Both the position numbers and the translations under genes were made by a program. Shown here in pieces: positions 32,399 through 44,123 of a stretch of DNA of 64,000 nt; positions within the stretch are counted from its first letter, which is position 1; every line of letters begins with the position of its first letter. The DNA is from Ruania halotolerans. GTDB lineage: Bacteria; Actinomycetota; Actinomycetes; Actinomycetales; Beutenbergiaceae. Under the pieces are notes generated by a model that had not been told where the DNA came from, ran no database searches, and worked only from the letters and a program-made list of their open reading frames with translations. Location of the stretch: positions 3,359,380-3,423,379 of the forward strand of contig NZ_CP088017.1 of the NCBI RefSeq assembly GCF_021049285.1. Reading direction: 5' to 3'.

Positions 32399-33901
32399 GT
32401 GCCCACGCGCGTCTCCCGCCTCCGTAGCAGCGTTCGTTCACGTGCCCTCGCCGCCCTGACGATCCTCTCGGCACTCGCGCTTGCGGCAGCCGGAGTGAGT
32501 GCGTATTCCCTGGAGCGGGACCGCAGTCTGATCCGCCTGGACGACTCCCTCAGTCGGTCGGCGGCAGAGATCCGCACGCTCGCCGAGGAAGGGGTGGACC
32601 CCAGCACCGGTCAGCCGTTCAACTCGGTCTCGGCAGTGCTGCGCACAGCCTTGAGCCGGGTGGTGCCGGCCACGAACGAGGCGCTGGCAGGGTTCATCGA
32701 TGGGGACGTCTCACACGTGCCTGAGATTGCCACATCGTTCCGGATCGAGGACGATCCCGAACTCGTGACCGCTCTAGCTCCCGTCTCCGAGTGGGACGAG
32801 GCCGACCTGTTCACAGTCGAGACATCCCAACGCACGTACCGCGTTCTCGCCCTCCCGGTGACGACCGATCCGCCCAGCGAGCGGGGGGCGATGGTTCTCG
32901 CCTTCGACGTCGATGCCGAGTACGACCAGATCGAGGGGACCTTTCGGACCTACGCCCTGGTCTCGGTGGCCGCACTGGCGTGGATCACGCTGATCGGTTG
33001 GTTCGTGGTGGGCCAACTGCTCGCTCCACTGAAAGTGCTGCGCAACACCGCGGAGGAGATCAACTCCTCGGATGACCTGAGCCGTCGCATCCCAGTCGCG
33101 GGCAATGACGACTTGGCCTTGTTGAGCGCCACGTTCAACGCGATGCTGGCCCGGCTGGACCAGGCATTCGGGTCCCAGCGCCAACTCTTGGACGACGCCG
33201 GGCACGAACTGCGCACGCCGCTGACCATCATCCGTGGCCACCTCGAGCTGATGGACCCCACCGACTCCGAGGATGCTGCGAGCACCCGAGCACTCGCCCT
33301 GGACGAGATCGACCGAATGAACCTGCTGATCGACGATCTGATGACGCTGGCAAAATCTCGCCGCCCCGACTTCGTCACGCCCACCGACGTTGATGTCGCC
33401 CTGCTCACCGATGATGTGCTGGCCAAGGCGGCCACGCTGGGCCATCGGCGGTGGGTGCTCGACTCCCTGACCGATGTGCGCATCCAGGCAGACCCGCGCC
33501 GGCTCACGCAGGCACTGCTGCAACTGGCGAGCAACGCGGTGAAGTTCTCTGCCGAGGGGACCACTGTGGGCATCGGCTCGGCACTGTCCGCCGACGGCTC
33601 CACCGTGTCATTGTGGGTGCGGGACGAGGGCGTGGGCATCCCCGCCACCGACCAACAGCGCGTGTTCGGCCGGTTCGAAAGACTCGATCCCACAGTGGAG
33701 GGCATCGGGCTCGGGCTACCGATCGTGGCATCGATCGCTGAGGCGCATGGCGGGCACACAACGGTCGCATCCGCCCCCGGCGCAGGGAGCACGATCACGA
33801 TCCACTTGCCACGCACACCACCACTGGACGACGCCGCAACCACTCAGTACGGGGTCTCGGCCGAGGCGTCAGTGCACGTAGACCAGAAGGAGCAACGATG
33901 A
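32399..33901 (+). CDS. Sensor histidine kinase (HAMP-containing)
   Basis: 500 residues. Membrane helix about 17-37, extracellular sensor region about 38-182, second helix about 184-206, HAMP about 206-258, HisKA with His269 in DDAGHELRTPLTII, then HATPase_c with N-box LLQLASNAVKFS, G1 DEGVGIP, F-box VFGRFERLD and G2 GIGLGLPIV. All catalytic motifs are intact. Autophosphorylates and passes phosphate to the regulator encoded next (4-nt overlap). Signal unknown; the sensor region matches nothing I recognise. GTG start, probably leaderless. Confidence 0.93.
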   Translation: MPTRVSRLRSSVRSRALAALTILSALALAAAGVSAYSLERDRSLIRLDDSLSRSAAEIRTLAEEGVDPSTGQPFNSVSAVLRTALSRVVPATNEALAGFIDGDVSHVPEIATSFRIEDDPELVTALAPVSEWDEADLFTVETSQRTYRVLALPVTTDPPSERGAMVLAFDVDAEYDQIEGTFRTYALVSVAALAWITLIGWFVVGQLLAPLKVLRNTAEEINSSDDLSRRIPVAGNDDLALLSATFNAMLARLDQAFGSQRQLLDDAGHELRTPLTIIRGHLELMDPTDSEDAASTRALALDEIDRMNLLIDDLMTLAKSRRPDFVTPTDVDVALLTDDVLAKAATLGHRRWVLDSLTDVRIQADPRRLTQALLQLASNAVKFSAEGTTVGIGSALSADGSTVSLWVRDEGVGIPATDQQRVFGRFERLDPTVEGIGLGLPIVASIAEAHGGHTTVASAPGAGSTITIHLPRTPPLDDAATTQYGVSAEASVHVDQKEQR

Positions 33902-34557
33902 GCCAGATCCTGATCGCCGAGGATGAGGCACGGATCGCGTCGTTCGTCGCCAAGGGCCTGCGCGCAGCCGGGTACACGCCGACGACAGTCGGTACTGCCG
34001 CCGACACCGTCGACCTGGCAAGCACGGGAGACTTCGACCTGCTGATCCTCGATCTGGGCCTGCCGGACCAGGACGGATTCGAGGTGCTGCGTGCGGTGCG
34101 ATCGCTCGGCGTGACGATCCCGGTGATCATTCTCACCGCGCGCTCGTCAGTGACCGACACGGTCGCTGGCCTTGAGGGCGGTGCCGACGACTACATGGCC
34201 AAGCCGTTCCGGTTCGAGGAACTGCTCGCGCGTGTGCGGCTCCGGCTCCGCAGCGACATCACCAGTTCGGAACCGACCGTGCTCAGCCACGGCGGCCTGT
34301 CTCTCGACCTGCGTACGCGACGGGCCCGGGTGAATGAGCGAGACGTCGACCTGTCCGCCCGTGAGTTCACCCTCACCGAGACGTTCCTACGCAGCCCGGG
34401 ACAGGTACTCAGCCGCGAACAACTGCTGTCCCGGGTGTGGGGGTATGACTTCGATCCCGGTTCGAATGTGGTGGACGTCTACGTGCGCTACCTGCGCAAG
34501 AAGCTCGGGGCGCACCGTTTCGAGACCGTGCGTGGGATGGGCTACCGACTCAGCTGA
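33898..34557 (+). CDS. OmpR-family response regulator
   Basis: 219 residues. Receiver domain with phospho-acceptor Asp52 and Lys102, followed by a winged-helix effector domain (about 128-218) with SAREFTLTETFLRSPGQVLS and DVYVRYLRKKLG. Start overlaps the kinase stop (ATGA). Targets are unknown. Its stop is 14 bases from the stop of the convergent NarL-type regulator. Confidence 0.95.
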   Translation: MSQILIAEDEARIASFVAKGLRAAGYTPTTVGTAADTVDLASTGDFDLLILDLGLPDQDGFEVLRAVRSLGVTIPVIILTARSSVTDTVAGLEGGADDYMAKPFRFEELLARVRLRLRSDITSSEPTVLSHGGLSLDLRTRRARVNERDVDLSAREFTLTETFLRSPGQVLSREQLLSRVWGYDFDPGSNVVDVYVRYLRKKLGAHRFETVRGMGYRLS

Positions 34558-34571
34558 CCTCGCGGGAGTGT

Positions 34572-35228
34572 TCAGCCATCGGCATCGTGTACCAGGAGCG
34601 CGAGCTGCGTCCGGTTCCCCAGGCCCAGCTCGGACAGCATGCGTGAGATGTGCGCCTTCACTGTCGCGATTGACATCCCCAGTGTGCGAGCAATCTCGGC
34701 GTTCGAGGCGCCGAGGGAGACCTCCCGGGCGACGTCGCGCTCCCGCACAGTCAGAGTGTTCACTGCGCGACGCGCCCGGGCGGCCGAGTCCGCACGAGTC
34801 CTCGCCCGATCGAGCAGACCCCGCAGAACAGCGACGGAGAAGACCGGTTCCCCGGCCGCGACCCGGCGGACAGCCTCGACAACCCGTTCTGGTTCGGTGT
34901 CCTTGAGCAGGAAGCCGGCGGCCCCTGCGCGTAGCGCGGCGAGAACATTCTCGTCGGCATCGAAGGTGGTCAACACGAGGACTTCGGGAGGGTCGGTCCG
35001 CGCCCTCACTCGCCGGGTGGCCTCGATCCCGTCCATCCGCGGCATCCGCAGGTCCATCACCACCACATCGACCTGGCGGGAATCCAGGACCTCACGAACC
35101 TGGCTGCCATCGCCCGCATCAGCCACGACGTCGATGCCCTCTGCCCCGTCGAGCATCAGGGTGAGCGCTCCGCGCACCAACGGATCGTCATCGACCACCA
35201 GGAGACGGATTCGTGGCGACTCACTCAT
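34572..35228 (-). CDS. NarL/LuxR-family response regulator
   Basis: 218 residues from ATG 35228. Receiver with Asp59 (VVVMDLRMPRMDG) and the conserved Lys in GFLLKD, then a LuxR-type HTH of about 60 residues (LTVRERDVAREVSLGASNAE and MSIATVKAHISRML). The start overlaps the kinase stop by eight bases. NarL-type regulators bind inverted heptamers; a matching 7-2-7 palindrome occurs at 37630 and 39357, but the link is inference. Confidence 0.94.
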   Translation of the reverse strand: MSESPRIRLLVVDDDPLVRGALTLMLDGAEGIDVVADAGDGSQVREVLDSRQVDVVVMDLRMPRMDGIEATRRVRARTDPPEVLVLTTFDADENVLAALRAGAAGFLLKDTEPERVVEAVRRVAAGEPVFSVAVLRGLLDRARTRADSAARARRAVNTLTVRERDVAREVSLGASNAEIARTLGMSIATVKAHISRMLSELGLGNRTQLALLVHDADG

Positions 35229-36390
35229 CCGGCCACGGTATCCGGGCCCTGAGCCGGAACACGCCGCCGCCGGTCTCGATCTCGATCGCACCACCGGCGA
35301 GCTCCGCTCGCTCCGCCAGGCCAACCAGACCGGCGCCCGAGCCCGGCACGTCTGCTGAGCGAGCGCGCAGCGGATTGCTGATTTCGACGCTCAGCGATCC
35401 GCCCGCGATCCCGGTCAGCTGGACGTGGACCGGGCACCCGGCGGCATGCTTGCGAGCGTTCGTCAGTCCTTCCTGGATGATCCGGTAGACCGGCCGGCCG
35501 ACAGCGGTCGGGACGGGACCGTCCACCTCGATCTGCGTCGTCACCGTGCTGCCGGCCGCCCTGGCCTCATCGACCAGTGTCGGCAGGTCGGCGACACCCG
35601 GGTCCGGAGGCCTTCGCCGGCTGAGCGGCCCTGAGTCCACCACCTCGTCCGCGCGAAGCACCCCAATCACCTCACGCAACTCCTCGAGGGCCTCGTGCAC
35701 ACCGCGGCGGACCGTCCCTGCCGCGATCGCCATCTGCTCGGGCGGGCCATCCGGGCGGTACTCCAAGGCACCGGCCGCCGTGGCGACGAGCGAGAGGCGA
35801 TGCGCGAGGACATCGTGCATCTCCCGCGCGATCCGAGTGCGCTCCGCGAGCCGTGCGTCGGCTAGGCGCCGTTCCGCGTCGAGTTCAGCACGACGGGCAC
35901 GCTCGCGCAGTGAGCCCATCAGTGCCCAGCGGGCCTGTGCGAACGCTCCCCACGCGATCAGGGCCGCATACGCCGTCAGCGTCAGGAGCACCCACCAGGT
36001 CATCGTGATCCCCGCAACGGGGCGCGCCACCGCCTGGACCACGTGCGCCAGCACACCGGCGGCGCCGATCAGGGCAGCCGGCACCAGGCGGTGACGCTGT
36101 GCCACCACCAGCGTGGCAATGGTCGAGGCAGCCGTCGCAGCCGGAGAGGCCGCTGCCAGGCAGGCGATCACGACCGCTCCCGCCGCCGGATAGCGCAGCG
36201 CAAGAGCGAGCGCCATCAGGGCCAGTACACCGACCACGCCGTCAAGAACCGTCCAGGCCGCGCCTCCGCCTGCGGACGCCGATCGAGCGAGCACTGTGGC
36301 CGTCGTCAGCACCGTGGCCACGCCGAGCACGGCGAACGTCCAGGTGGTCCCCAGGTGGGATCGGATCGGGGTGTCCTCGGTGTGACCCAT
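35221..36390 (-). CDS. NarL-type sensor histidine kinase (HisKA_3)
   Basis: 389 residues from ATG 36390. The first 150 residues contain about five to six hydrophobic segments with little extracellular sequence. HisKA_3 follows with His192 (REMHDVLAHRLSL) and a HATPase domain with Asn311 (RIIQEGLTNARKHA) and GAGLVGLAERAELAGG. This architecture typically senses membrane or cell-envelope signals. A TACGGT -10-like box ends eight bases before the ATG, so it may be leaderless. Confidence 0.93.
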   Translation of the reverse strand: MGHTEDTPIRSHLGTTWTFAVLGVATVLTTATVLARSASAGGGAAWTVLDGVVGVLALMALALALRYPAAGAVVIACLAAASPAATAASTIATLVVAQRHRLVPAALIGAAGVLAHVVQAVARPVAGITMTWWVLLTLTAYAALIAWGAFAQARWALMGSLRERARRAELDAERRLADARLAERTRIAREMHDVLAHRLSLVATAAGALEYRPDGPPEQMAIAAGTVRRGVHEALEELREVIGVLRADEVVDSGPLSRRRPPDPGVADLPTLVDEARAAGSTVTTQIEVDGPVPTAVGRPVYRIIQEGLTNARKHAAGCPVHVQLTGIAGGSLSVEISNPLRARSADVPGSGAGLVGLAERAELAGGAIEIETGGGVFRLRARIPWPDE

Positions 36391-37032: not shown

Positions 37033-37542
37033 TCAGTCGCCCGAGTCGGCAGAGGGTGCACTGTCCGCGGACTCCGGGCTCTGCGCACTGGCCGGGCTCG
37101 GGGCGCTGACCGGACTCGGCGCACTGGCTGGGCTCGGTGGCGTCTGAGCACTCACCGGGCTGACCGGACTCGGCGCACTCGCCGGACTCGGTGGCGTCTG
37201 AGCACTCACCGGGCTGACCGGACTCGGCGCACTCGCCGGACTCGGTGGCGTCTGAGCACTCACCGGGCTCACCGGACTCGGCGCACTCGCCGGTGTCATC
37301 GGGGAAGCGGTAGGCGACGCAGCCGTCACCGACGAGATCGCACTTTCCGCGGCCACGGCGGCAGGGTTCGCCGTCACAGCCTCGGACGCGAGGGAGAGCT
37401 TCACGGCTTCGTCGGCGCCCGCCACCTGAACGGCAGGCTGGCTGAAATCCTCACCTGGTTCGGCGGCCGCGCTGACCGCGCCAGCGGTCACGGCCACCAC
37501 ACCGAGGGCGCCGGTGGTGATCCATACCTTGCGTGTGATCAT
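37033..37542 (-). CDS. Exported Ser/Ala/Pro-rich repeat protein
   Basis: 169 residues, family unrecognised. N-terminal signal-like segment (ITRKVWITTGALGVVAVTAG then AVSAAA, a plausible signal-peptidase I site), a short ordered stretch to about residue 70, then low-complexity sequence built of 18-residue repeats around PSPASAPSPVSPVSAQTP, and an acidic end (SPESADSAPSADSGD). The N-terminus and tail resemble the protein encoded at 37645-38073, so the two are paralogues. Probably secreted or surface-associated. A TTGACA box lies about 40 bases upstream of the start, without a clear -10. Confidence 0.75.
   Translation of the reverse strand: MITRKVWITTGALGVVAVTAGAVSAAAEPGEDFSQPAVQVAGADEAVKLSLASEAVTANPAAVAAESAISSVTAASPTASPMTPASAPSPVSPVSAQTPPSPASAPSPVSPVSAQTPPSPASAPSPVSPVSAQTPPSPASAPSPVSAPSPASAQSPESADSAPSADSGD
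37132..37293. repeat. 54-bp tandem repeat, three units
   Basis: Units at 37132-37185, 37186-37239 and 37240-37293, nearly identical (single-base differences). 54 bp is a multiple of three, so unit gain or loss keeps the reading frame. Degenerate half-units continue toward 37080. It encodes the 18-residue repeats of the exported protein. Confidence 0.9.
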
Positions 37543-37629
37543 GATGTCTCCAGTGATCGTCCCCAGGCGGGGTTCGTTGGTGTCAAGGCCGAGCCTGGCC
37601 CTCGGAGATGAGAACGGCGGGAACCGGCG

Positions 37630-37645
37630 ATGAGAGGCCTCTCAT
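37630..37645. promoter_or_regulatory. 7-2-7 palindrome, copy 1
   Basis: ATGAGAG-GC-CTCTCAT, extended by one further base pair on each side (37629-37646). It lies 88 bases upstream of the exported-protein gene starting at 37542 and touches the stop codon of the upstream paralogue. A further half-site ATGAGA is at 37608-37613. Same heptamers as at 39357-39372. Confidence 0.7.
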
Positions 37646-38073
37646 CAATCGTCTGCCGACTCGGCTGACGGCGGGCTGTCCGGGCTGTCATCGGGGCTAG
37701 CGGGCGCATTCGGACTGTCAGCGCTCACCGGTGCAGCGAGCGATACCCGCTCCGGAGAGTCACCTCCCTCGGTCGCGGAAGTCCCGCCCGACGCGGCCGG
37801 CGGATCCGCCGGCGAGACGGCCGTCCGCACGGAGCTGTCTGTCGTGCCGGGGCCGTCGGTCCTGTCACGGCCGTCCGTGTCCCGGCCCGTCTCCGGGGTG
37901 GCCACCGATACCGCACGCTCCGACGCGGCCCGCGGAGCGGTCGTTGGCCCAGAGACGACGATGGCCTCGCCCATCGAAGGGGCGGTGAGCCCGGGTCCCG
38001 TCGCCAGCACCGCTGCGACCACGCCAGCCACGCCCAGTGCACCGGTGGCCATCCATGCACCACTGCGACTCAT
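37645..38073 (-). CDS. Exported low-complexity acidic protein, paralogue of 37033-37542
   Basis: 142 residues from ATG 38073 with GGAGG five bases upstream. N-terminal SGAWMATGALGVAGVVAAVL parallels VWITTGALGVVAVTAG of its neighbour, then Thr/Ser/Pro/Gly-rich sequence and an acidic end (SPDDSPDSPPSAESADD). No tandem repeats. The start overlaps the stop of the APH-like gene (ATGA), so the two are co-expressed. Function unknown; could be a secreted or wall-associated protein, or a lipid-anchored one, although no lipobox Cys is present. Confidence 0.75.
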   Translation of the reverse strand: MSRSGAWMATGALGVAGVVAAVLATGPGLTAPSMGEAIVVSGPTTAPRAASERAVSVATPETGRDTDGRDRTDGPGTTDSSVRTAVSPADPPAASGGTSATEGGDSPERVSLAAPVSADSPNAPASPDDSPDSPPSAESADD

Positions 38074-39320
38074 GGTTTCCTCCCGGCTCGTTCGTTCCGT
38101 GCACGGGTGAGCCAACGATCCGCGACCGCCAGTCGAGCCCGCCCCTGGTCCGCAGCCGTCCCGGCCACCAGCGAGAGCACCACCGCGGCCACTCTCGCGG
38201 CAAGAGCCGCCGGGTCCACACGCTCGGAGAACACGGCGAACCAGTCATCAGTGATCTCATCAACGTGGTGGTAACGCTCCGGGGCGAGCGCGGGGAGCAC
38301 ACTGAGGTGCCCGAGCATCGTGGCCAGGTCGTCCTCCCGCGCTCCCGGACCGAGTGAGTCCAGATCGATGGCTCCGTGCACCTTGCCTGCGGCGGTGAAC
38401 ACGTTGGCCTCGTAGAAGTCTCCGTGGGTGGGCACCTGAGCCGGAGCGGGCAGCTCGGACAGGAGATCGGCGACACCCCGCTCGATTGCGGTGATCCCGG
38501 CCATCGACGCGGGTTGCGCTGCCCGGGCAGCGCTCGCGTGGAAGTCGATCCGATCGACCCAGGACTGACGCCGAGGGAGTGCCCGGACGGCATCCGGAAG
38601 CGCGTCCAGCCAGGCCACCAGTTCCTCGGCGGCGGGCAGGTCCTCCGGGTGGCTGCGCGCGCCGGCAATGGCATTCGTCAGGGCGGTGCCGGTCATCACA
38701 GAGAGCACCACCACACCGGGAACCGGTTCACCCACGACCCGAGGGGCTGGCACACCTGTCTGCTCCAGCACCTGGTGGCGCCGGACCAGCCGCGAGGTGC
38801 GCGCCGGGGGCAGGATCTTGAGGTACGCCACGGGACCACCAGGGCCCATGACCCGGACCACTGCGCGGCGTGTCGGCCGATAGCCGAGGAGTTCCACCCC
38901 GATCGGGGTGGGATCTGAGGCACTGCTGCGGCCGCCATGGGCAGTGAGAGAGGGACGCAACCAGCCCGCAACCACACGAGGATCAAGCGCCGCTCGCAGG
39001 CCGGGAAGCGCAGGGTCATCTGCACGCCGCCATACGCGCACTCGATGCACGCCGTTGTCGAGCACGGCGACCGAGGGCGCATCGGGAACTGCGGCAGTGC
39101 TGGCAACCAGGTGTTCCCGGACCGGACGCCCCGCCACCCGGTAGTCGACGGCGTAGACCGCGCTCACGCCCAGACCTGGCCGGTGATGCACGGCGTCGAC
39201 CTCGACCACGAGGCCAGCCAGCGCCTCATCCACACCGATCGCGGCCCGCACCAAGTCGCCGGCGTCCGAACCCGTCAACAGGGTCAGCTCTTCGGGCACG
39301 AGGGTGGTCATGATGCTCAT
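38070..39320 (-). CDS. APH-family phosphotransferase-like protein
   Basis: 416 residues. Kinase-like fold of the aminoglycoside phosphotransferase/choline kinase superfamily: Lys168 in AYLKIL (ATP-binding candidate), catalytic loop HGDFYEAN (His299-Asp301-Asn306) and IDLDSLG (metal-binding Asp319/321). The N-terminal 150 residues are a separate alpha/beta-like region. Substrate unknown; chromosomal members of this group often act on metabolites such as sugars, homoserine or choline, so drug resistance should not be assumed. ATG 39320 or 39311 possible. Confidence 0.85.
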   Translation of the reverse strand: MSIMTTLVPEELTLLTGSDAGDLVRAAIGVDEALAGLVVEVDAVHHRPGLGVSAVYAVDYRVAGRPVREHLVASTAAVPDAPSVAVLDNGVHRVRVWRRADDPALPGLRAALDPRVVAGWLRPSLTAHGGRSSASDPTPIGVELLGYRPTRRAVVRVMGPGGPVAYLKILPPARTSRLVRRHQVLEQTGVPAPRVVGEPVPGVVVLSVMTGTALTNAIAGARSHPEDLPAAEELVAWLDALPDAVRALPRRQSWVDRIDFHASAARAAQPASMAGITAIERGVADLLSELPAPAQVPTHGDFYEANVFTAAGKVHGAIDLDSLGPGAREDDLATMLGHLSVLPALAPERYHHVDEITDDWFAVFSERVDPAALAARVAAVVLSLVAGTAADQGRARLAVADRWLTRARNERAGRKP

Positions 39321-39356
39321 TCCATCGGCCCTTGATGGTGTCGGTGTGAGAGGAAG

Positions 39357-39372
39357 ATGAGAGAACTCTCAT
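39357..39372. promoter_or_regulatory. 7-2-7 palindrome, copy 2
   Basis: ATGAGAG-AA-CTCTCAT lies between the divergent APH-like gene and adenosine deaminase gene, 36 bases from the former's start and directly before the TACAGT -10-like box (39372-39377) of the latter. An extra TGAGAG half-site lies 11 bases upstream (39347-39352), one helical turn away. Confidence 0.75.
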
Positions 39373-39384
39373 ACAGTGACAATC

Positions 39385-40431
39385 GTGGCCCGTGATCTGC
39401 GAACGCTTCCCAAGGCACATCTGCATCTGCACTTCACCGGCTCGATGAGTGCGCTGACCCTCAGCGAGCTCGCCATCGAAGCAGGAGTGCGGATCCCGGA
39501 GACGCTCCGCGAGACGGTCGCCTCCGCGGACCCGCTGCGGCTGCCTGCGAACGAACGCGGTTGGTTCCGGTTCCAGCGCATGTACGACGCCGCCCGGGCC
39601 GTGGTGCGCTCCGAAGCGGCGATGCGCCGGCTCATCCACGAAGCGGCGCAGGCCGACGCCGACGAAGGCTCTCGACGCCTGGAGATTCAGGTGGACCCGA
39701 CCTCCTACGCCCCGTTCGTCGGCGGCATCACCCCGGCGCTGGAGATCATCACCGATGCGGCGCGGGAGGCCAGCGCAACCACCGGCGTCGAGACGGGCAT
39801 CATCGTGGCCTCCTCACGCACGCGCCACCCGCTGGACGCCCGGACCTTGGCACGCCTCGCGGTCCGGCACGCCGGGGACGGTGCCGGTGACGTGATCGGC
39901 TTCGGTCTGAGCAACGATGAGCGCCGCGGGAACACCGCGGATTTCGGGCCGGCGTTCCGGATCGCCGCTCGTGCAGGTCTGCTGCTCGCCCCGCACGGCG
40001 GGGAGCTGCTCGGACCGGACCACGTGGCCGAGGTGGTGGCCCATCTGCACCCGCACCGTCTCGGGCATGGGGTCCGAGCCGCCGAGGATCCGGCCCTCTT
40101 GGATCGGATCGTGGCAGAGAGGATCGCACTCGAGGTGTGCCCGGCGTCGAATGTCTCCCTCGGTGTCTTCCCCACGGCGCAGGAACTGCCCCTGCGCCGA
40201 CTCCTGGCTGCGGGCGCCGATATCGCTCTCGGAGCCGACGATCCGCTCCTGTTCGGCTCCCGGTTGCTGGCCCAGTACGAGACCGCCCGGCATGTGCACG
40301 GCATGACGGATGCCGAGCTTGCCGAACTGGCCCGAGGTTCGATCCGCGCCAGCCGCGCCAGCACCGCCTCGAAGGCGGCAATGCTCGCAGATGTCGGCGC
40401 CTGGCTCACCGGACCTGGCCTCCGCGAGTGA
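39385..40431 (+). CDS. add: Adenosine deaminase family protein
   Basis: 348 residues from GTG 39385. Zinc and catalytic motifs intact: HLHLH (12-16), PHGGE (His204, Glu207), HRLGHG (224-229) and ADDP (284-287). Deaminates adenosine/deoxyadenosine to inosine in purine salvage; adenine deaminase activity is a less likely alternative because these families share motifs. The -10-like box TACAGT ends seven bases before GTG 39385, favouring leaderless translation there; GTG 39376 would add three residues. Confidence 0.88.
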   Translation: MARDLRTLPKAHLHLHFTGSMSALTLSELAIEAGVRIPETLRETVASADPLRLPANERGWFRFQRMYDAARAVVRSEAAMRRLIHEAAQADADEGSRRLEIQVDPTSYAPFVGGITPALEIITDAAREASATTGVETGIIVASSRTRHPLDARTLARLAVRHAGDGAGDVIGFGLSNDERRGNTADFGPAFRIAARAGLLLAPHGGELLGPDHVAEVVAHLHPHRLGHGVRAAEDPALLDRIVAERIALEVCPASNVSLGVFPTAQELPLRRLLAAGADIALGADDPLLFGSRLLAQYETARHVHGMTDAELAELARGSIRASRASTASKAAMLADVGAWLTGPGLRE

Positions 40432-43070: not shown

Positions 43071-44123
43071 GTGAGCACTCGTGCCACGTTGACCGACGTC
43101 GCCCGCACGGCCAACGTTTCCCTGTCGACGGCGTCCATCGCCTTCTCCGGTGCCGGTCCGATCGCCGCCGCCACCCGCGAGCGGGTCTTGGCAGCGGCCG
43201 CCGCGCTCGGATACGCCGGTCCGAACCCGGTGGCCGCCTCATTGCGGCGGGGCCACAGCAAGATCATCGGCGTTCTGGTGGGGCAGGACCTGCGGGTGAA
43301 CTTCCGTGACCCCGTGGCCGTGCAGACACTCGCCGGGGTGGCCTCCACACTCGGCGATGCCGCCCGAGGGATGTTGCTCGTGCCGTCCGGCAGCGATGCG
43401 GGCCAGGATCGCACCGGTGTGGACTTGGTGCGGCACGGGCCGATGGATGCCGCCGTGGTGTTGCACCAGATCACTCCGGAGACGGCCCGCATCCTGCGGG
43501 AGCGTCAGGTGCCGCTGGTCTGGGTGGATCGGCCCCGGCGCGGCGAGATATCGGTGCGGGTGCAGGACAGGGCCGGTATGGCCGCACTGGGTGAGCATCT
43601 GCTGGGGTTGGGGCATCGCCACGTGGGACTCGCCACGATGCCGTGGTCGCCGAAACGACAGCGGGGCCCGATAGATCCCCGTGGCGGCAGCAGCCCCCGT
43701 GAGCGATATGTCACCGACCGGCTCGCGGGAATCCGCGACGCCGGGCTGATGCCAGCCGCGATCGAGACGACCGCGCGGTCCCTGGTGGAAGAGGGGATCC
43801 GAGCAGGACATGCGCTACTGGACCGCGCGCCACAGGTGACGGCGTTGGTCGGATTCAGCGATCTGATCGCAGCCGGGCTGTTGCTTGCCGCGCAGGAGCG
43901 GGGTCTGCGTGTCCCGGAGGATGTCTCGGTGGCGGGGTTCGACGGCGTCGATCTGCCATGGCTCGGCGAGCATCGACTGACCTCCATCGTTCAGCCGATC
44001 CAGGAGAAGGGTGAGTACGCCGCTCAGGCGGCAATCATGCTGGCCGACGGTGGCCGGCCCACGTCGGTGGCGCTGGAATGTGACCTGCGGATCGGAACGA
44101 CCACGGGCCCGGCCCCGACCTGA
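43071..44123 (+). CDS. LacI-family transcriptional regulator
   Basis: 350 residues, GTG start with GGGAG eight bases upstream. N-terminal HTH (TLTDVARTANVSLSTASIAF, residues 7-26), hinge helix PVAASLRRG, then periplasmic-binding-like core (KIIGVLVGQDL; ending DVSVAGFDGVDLPWLGEHRL). A basic, Pro-rich insert (SPKRQRGPIDPRGGSS) is seen near residue 195, as in many actinobacterial LacI proteins. Probable regulator of the divergent MFS gene. Ligand unknown. Confidence 0.92.
   Translation: MSTRATLTDVARTANVSLSTASIAFSGAGPIAAATRERVLAAAAALGYAGPNPVAASLRRGHSKIIGVLVGQDLRVNFRDPVAVQTLAGVASTLGDAARGMLLVPSGSDAGQDRTGVDLVRHGPMDAAVVLHQITPETARILRERQVPLVWVDRPRRGEISVRVQDRAGMAALGEHLLGLGHRHVGLATMPWSPKRQRGPIDPRGGSSPRERYVTDRLAGIRDAGLMPAAIETTARSLVEEGIRAGHALLDRAPQVTALVGFSDLIAAGLLLAAQERGLRVPEDVSVAGFDGVDLPWLGEHRLTSIVQPIQEKGEYAAQAAIMLADGGRPTSVALECDLRIGTTTGPAPT

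Follow-up and report, generated by a model that had tools for sequence, protein, structure and literature searches.

This locus raises the question of which regulator reads a 16-bp perfect palindrome, ATGAGAG-N2-CTCTCAT, that occurs exactly at 37630-37645 and again at 39357-39372 of the window (the whole 64-kb stretch of Ruania halotolerans DNA that was analysed), and which of the surrounding genes it serves. A first-pass annotation, accurate for both 16-mers, had linked them to a nearby NarL-type two-component system and had proposed a small regulon of two secreted low-complexity proteins, a kinase-like enzyme and adenosine deaminase. Judged by comparison with related genomes, the palindrome is a conserved operator, and its regulator had been misassigned; with a probability of roughly 0.86, both operators belong to the OmpR/PhoB-type response regulator encoded at 33898-34557, predicted to act as a class-II activator of the gene for the exported protein ExpA and of the operon for the kinase-like protein and a second exported protein, ExpB.

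The palindrome pair and its surroundings

The locus begins on the plus strand with a histidine kinase gene (32399-33901; HAMP, HisKA and HATPase_c domain matches), the proposed sensor, which overlaps the gene of the proposed binder of both operators, a response regulator (33898-34557, plus strand) that carries both a Response_reg and a Trans_reg_C domain (PF00072 and PF00486, each above its Pfam cut-off) and is thus of the OmpR/PhoB class. The NarL-type regulator and kinase pair follows on the minus strand (34572-36390), then a plus-strand gene for a DUF6069 protein, and then the minus-strand gene for ExpA (37033-37542), an exported protein with W..TGALG in its N-terminal signal and a C-terminus reading SAPSADSGD. 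Operator 1, ATGAGAGGCCTCTCAT in the direction of ExpA, lies upstream of this gene (37630-37645, minus strand) and shares one base with the stop codon (37645-37647) of the next exported gene, that of ExpB (37645-38073, minus strand). The ATG of ExpB at 38073 overlaps the stop of the kinase-like gene (ATGA; 38070-39311, minus strand, probable leaderless start ATG at 39311), and the two form one overlapping unit. Operator 2, ATGAGAGTTCTCTCAT in the kinase-gene direction (39357-39372, minus strand), separates this unit from the divergent add gene for adenosine deaminase (39385-40431, plus strand; Pfam A_deaminase), which faces the back side of the operator; beyond add, a minus-strand murB and a LacI-type gene (43071-44123) carry labels read from the sequence. 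Going by the kinase gene, the closest named relatives are Ruania rhizosphaerae, R. albidiflava and Ca. R. gallistercoris.

The palindrome is not frequent across the chromosome: at up to one mismatch the whole genome (4,270,413 bp) holds two places, both at this locus, and the reversed control none. No third copy at up to two mismatches was present in the window (0.18 expected; one of 100 shuffles had two), and a motif-free scan for perfect 7-2-7 palindromes accompanied by half-site direct repeats at +11/+22 returned just these two in the window. When RTGAGAGNNCTCTCAY was searched for at up to two mismatches, 30 places were found genome-wide versus 15 for the control; among the 13 of 28 additional places that were inspected, none reached five of six matches at either phased offset, the best having four. 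As had been remarked at the outset, no regulator gene of this genome is preceded by a site of its own at up to one mismatch. Comparison of the intergenic regions across relatives, the check proposed with the original annotation, found operator 1 kept before orthologous exported genes and operator 2 before orthologous kinase genes.

Co-inheritance of sites and regulators

The seven same-genus genomes (G001-G007) each keep, at one locus, the OmpR-type pair (its regulator 82-87 % identical), the kinase gene and one or more sites at up to one mismatch. The NarL-type pair has no match within the 17-18 kb around the locus in these genomes, all of which keep the site and the OmpR-type pair; the nearest NarL-type relative elsewhere is 60 % identical (G002, C2:839753) and far from the sites of that genome. 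The idea that the NarL-type pair binds the palindromes had drawn on its location about 2 kb from the sites and on the 7-2-7 arrangement of heptamers, to which NarP and NarL do bind according to the available sections of the source (PMC7380067); as a diagnostic feature this shape fails, as the OmpR-family regulators CopR, PcoR, CusR and AgrR have it too. The one-sided, 11-bp-phased repeats described below are not explained by NarL either, and we regard a NarL-type binder, not co-inherited with the sites as the OmpR-type pair is, as highly improbable. A speculative link is thereby replaced by a specific regulator-operator pair.

Across 98 relatives (about 362 Mb), 98 sites at up to one mismatch were counted by summing a per-genome table, and 55 of them lie within 7 kb of an orthologue of the OmpR-type regulator, in 35 of 50 regulator regions that together cover 0.66 Mb (0.18 % of the total). 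These 50 regions were taken around regulator matches, with G071 and the second copies of five genomes excluded. The remaining 15 regions contain no site at up to one mismatch within 7 kb (three of them are cut by contig ends). The same association appears when the kinase gene is taken as the starting point: among 80 kinase-gene loci with 6-kb flanks, 72 of which reach at least 4.5 kb past the gene, a site was found in 13 of 17 with the regulator alongside and in none of the 55 that lack it (Fisher 3e-11, uncorrected for shared descent, and with the regulator scored within the locus only). In four of these 17 loci the regulator is present and the site is missing; the five loci with a site and no regulator all end before 4.5 kb past the kinase gene. 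The divergent add-kinase pair occurs with neither regulator nor site in 45 of the 80 loci, so that the pair alone does not require the palindrome. In a phylum-wide search of 30 regulator loci, including the present one and covering up to about 1.5 kb on each side, sites at up to two mismatches were found in six.

A transcription factor encoded elsewhere might bind the sites and merely share the history of the locus, a reading that fits regulator genes without a preceding site in this genome and the 15 of 50 regulator regions without one. It is improbable in view of the joint inheritance of sites and OmpR-type pair across families, the complete lack of sites in the 55 long loci without regulator, and the CusR-like layout, together with sites that precede the sensor-kinase gene itself in at least four loci (L011, L019, L186 and L197); the position of these four sites suggests autoregulation.

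A correlation was noted at the recognition helix of the OmpR-type regulator (the Arg in VYVRYLR) and given little weight. Orthologues with the Arg are accompanied by a site in 32 cases and lack one in four; those with another residue have a site in three cases and lack one in eight (p 2e-4, uncorrected for descent, with three contig-cut loci left out and L179, whose GTGAGAGGCCTCTCAC has two mismatches, scored as lacking a site). Variant operators near site-less regulator orthologues were sought with the motif-free palindrome-plus-repeat scan, which gave mostly chance-like matches (the shuffled control had five perfect palindromes and 44 with at least six of seven pairs in 172 kb); alone among the scanned variant loci, L227, L228, L233, L235 and L243 look like a cop-box array.

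The LacI-type gene at 43071-44123 offers a further candidate binder. Similar palindromes, GTGAGAGCGCTCTCAT, occur in G027 and G045, one of them (L083) beside a gene with 29 % identity to the LacI-type gene, and a central CG is typical of LacI operators. This candidate has next to no likelihood: a CG centre is found in 0 of the 55 regulator-linked sites, and L083, L084 and L095 have no phased repeats. The CG-centred look-alikes without phased repeats (those three loci; G027, G045 and G018) are probably operators of another family. In L199, one CG-centred site does stand before an exported gene, at a distance of 8 kb from the regulator.

Promoter architecture and the place of add

The half-sites that had been seen flanking both palindromes proved to be real, and they are 11-bp-phased direct repeats, at +31 of operator 1 and at +20 of operator 2. 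The first was placed correctly (ATGAGAA, 37608-37614; TTCTCAT on the minus strand, five of six matches, 22 bp past the inner half-site); the second, given as 39347, is corrected to GTGAGAG at 39346-39352 (CTCTCAC on the minus strand, six of six matches, 4 bp past operator 2). The complementary positions are weak in both arrays, with two of six matches at +20 of operator 1 (37619-37625, minus strand) and two of six at +31 of operator 2. The probable -10 element of the ExpA promoter, CAGGCT, was read from the alignment 10 bp past the half-site (37592-37597, minus strand), and a leaderless kinase-ExpB transcript would start from the putative -10 element TGGAAT (39319-39324, minus strand).

Aligned promoters of relatives repeat this arrangement. 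In 33 non-redundant promoters of exported genes, half-site repeats stand out at offsets 20 (z 11.2) and 31 (z 12.9), and in 15 non-redundant kinase promoters at +20 (z 10.8) and +31 (z 4.6); on the back side, at offsets -10 and -21, repeats are at or near background (z 0.6-2.3). The exported genes were picked by a crude composition filter, 2 and 4 exported-gene rows were excluded from the two promoter tables as reverse-strand frames or doubtful, and near-identical rows were removed. An A at offset 49 together with a T at offset 53, resembling a -10 element about 10 bp past the last half-site, occurs in 22 of the 33 exported-gene promoters; the T at offset 53 recurs in 11 of the 15 kinase promoters, and five of the 15 have a start codon at offset 60 or 61 (by a crude caller), as fits leaderless transcripts beginning 6-7 nt after the -10. 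Phased repeats that run on one side only and end about 10 bp short of the -10 are by their spacing and direction the geometry of a class-II activator. Regulator dimers would dock on the inverted repeat, extra monomers would extend the array along the half-sites repeated at +11 and/or +22 bp, to within about 10 bp of the -10, and the bound regulator would activate the ExpA gene from operator 1 and the kinase-ExpB operon from operator 2, in the manner of CusR, CopR and AgrR.

Of the regulon that had been proposed, the ExpA unit and the unit of ExpB and the kinase-like gene are supported as members; add is not a conserved member. The array at operator 2 points away from add, and the site is not adjacent to add in loci of Cellulosimicrobium and Oerskovia (L075, L077, L079 and L082); by conservation, add is a bystander at the back side of operator 2. 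The operator at 39357 could also repress add, with opposite control of kinase and deaminase as the outcome, a possibility compatible with activation by the OmpR-type regulator. Here and in four of the seven same-genus loci, a probable -10 element of add (TACAGT or TAGAGT; TACAGT at 39372-39377, plus strand, read from the sequence and its orthologues) abuts the palindrome, so that a protein on the operator would mask the core promoter of add; in the other three the element is about 20 bp off, and the Cellulosimicrobium and Oerskovia loci, as noted, do not have add next to the site. Repression of add thus appears conceivable, though rather unlikely. The add gene itself is apparently leaderless, with TACAGT followed by a GTG at 39385 (39372-39387), so that the start of a longer add reading frame at 39376 is probably wrong.

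Gene products and comparison with known systems

A profile of the exported N-terminus, run against the genome, had two clear members, ExpA and ExpB, one in each site-led unit, and two further partial matches at E 0.4-0.5. Neither protein matched a Pfam or NCBIfam family. The last 90 residues of ExpA consist of 30 Ser/Thr-x-x triplets with Pro or Ala in second place in 29 and Gly in the last, underlain by a 54-bp tandem DNA repeat at 37105-37293; the triplet period of ExpB was not significant in a shuffle test. In a collection of 57 exported proteins, many of them closely related, from which seven rows had been dropped as reverse-strand frames or doubtful, the triplet period beat 200 of 200 shuffles in 34 and a W..TG.LG-type signature was present in 40. 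Some distant members end in Asp-rich tails instead of triplets, so that what unites the family is export combined with low complexity rather than the triplet by itself. The relative G007 has an unlinked family member with Ser-Ala-Gln triplets (L101:1025-1411, minus strand) behind an operator of its own. In ExpA-like tails, the triplet hydroxyls would all face one side of a polyproline-II helix in a secreted rod; polyproline-II helices with hydroxyls on one face are known from antifreeze glycoproteins or mucins.

The kinase-like protein has the motifs and fold of the APH family (HGD..N as HGDFYEAN, D.D as IDLDS): H296, G297, D298, N303, D316 and D318 are invariant in 22 homologues, 15 of which match Pfam APH, a match that this kinase itself lacks. 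Its predicted structure (pLDDT 92) has the APH fold in common with maltokinase, glucosamine kinase and the aminoglycoside phosphotransferases. The best Foldseek E-value was obtained with the mycobacterial maltokinase 4u94 (8e-11; TM 0.46/0.43; 17 % identity), followed by APH(3') chains with target-normalised TM up to 0.63, and the GlcN kinase 6hwl was also among the matches. A sequence profile against the PDB favoured aminoglycoside phosphotransferases (best E about 1e-4), and the identification as a maltokinase is accordingly not secured.

In relatives, the same array also precedes a GT28-type glycosyltransferase with a GLGHxRRN motif (L104:189-1409, minus strand; L099, L188 and L199; loci L250-L273). 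Nine genomes have a site at up to one mismatch 67-115 bp before the aligned GT28 start, and among the 24 genomes with the gene (E <= 1e-20) RTGAGAGNNCTCTCAY is present in 13 at up to one and in 17 at up to two mismatches, as scored in the 350 bp that precede the conserved motif, with four unanchored genomes counted as misses, against a background of 2.5-3 %. The protein matches Pfam Glyco_tran_28_C (29 bits; cut-off 22), and its NCBIfam and PDB matches are weak; the GT28 query had no match in the present genome, though 24 relatives match. As a separate observation, G010, G017, G020 and G023, all of one genus, each have a single copy of ATGAGACCGCTCTCAT outside the locus.

The comparisons most likely describe a small, operator-linked regulon common to many relatives. 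Through the shared operator, the ExpA/ExpB family is linked with a kinase-like enzyme and with a glycosyltransferase, a first functional lead for these proteins; a kinase that may act on sugars, a glycosyltransferase and a Ser/Thr-rich rod together suggest surface glycan work. More tentatively, and as a whole doubtful, a widespread actinobacterial two-component system may build a glycosylated surface rod, in response to whatever signal its sensor would receive: a CusR-like regulator would switch on secreted Ser/Thr-Pro/Ala-X proteins alongside a sugar-kinase-like enzyme, joined in many relatives by a GT28 enzyme that would decorate the rod or the cell surface. No prior description of the regulon or of the triplet repeat was found in the open-licence literature. 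A CrtR paper that contains CTCTCAT has it, in the accessible text, in primers only. The CutRS system of Streptomyces, likened to the present one as an actinobacterial two-component system that acts on the envelope (secretion stress), has a different motif, TAWATAAA, in the available part of the source (PMC12802291), and a relationship with CutR was set aside on this ground.

Among characterised regulators the closest likeness is to the OmpR-family proteins of the cop-box type. According to the accessible sections of PMC7380067, the inverted repeats recognised by CopR and PcoR lie within 16 bp, and AgrR of Cupriavidus metallidurans, an autoregulated type-II activator, binds an inverted repeat of 16 bp accompanied by direct repeats in phase with it; NarL and NarP share the inverted 7-2-7 heptamers with the present sites but represent a different regulator family. 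The 16-bp inverted repeat ATGA-N8-TCAT of the OmpR-family regulator CusR of Escherichia coli, whose preference is given as AAAATGACAAnnTTGTCATTTT in the available part of the source (PMC11195947), recurs here. In the cusC promoter of E. coli a third half-site, CTGTCAC, lies 4 bp downstream, which is the layout of operator 2; both operators at this locus have the CusR/CopR-type arrangement of a 16-bp inverted repeat and an in-phase direct repeat before the promoter. The best match of CusR in this genome is the OmpR-type regulator at 33898-34557 (a modest lead, with 164 versus 155 bits for the next regulator), and the top NCBIfam model of the latter is cztR_silR_copR (TIGR01387), at 194.2 bits below its cut-off of 279.2, so that formal membership does not follow. 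The half-site of CusR, CopR and PcoR is TTGTCAT, here CTCTCAT, and that of AgrR, a silver-resistance regulator with cop/czc targets, is ATTACA. The cop-box targets of CusR, CopR and PcoR in E. coli and Pseudomonas serve copper efflux, in contrast to the exported low-complexity proteins and kinase-like enzyme at this locus. Metal sensing in the manner of CusRS or CopRS was considered and rejected: no alignment column in residues 30-200 of 51 aligned sensor kinases has at least 50 % Cys, His or Met, and most of the 57 exported proteins have 0-2 such residues after the signal (L182, with 6 His, and L194, with 10, are exceptions). With no conserved ligands in the sensor and nearly none in most exported proteins, the regulator is described as cop-box-like in its working and is not filed as a heavy-metal regulator. 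In a regulon without sign of metal handling, a cop-box-like layout described for proteobacterial metal control thus appears to be in use in Actinomycetota.
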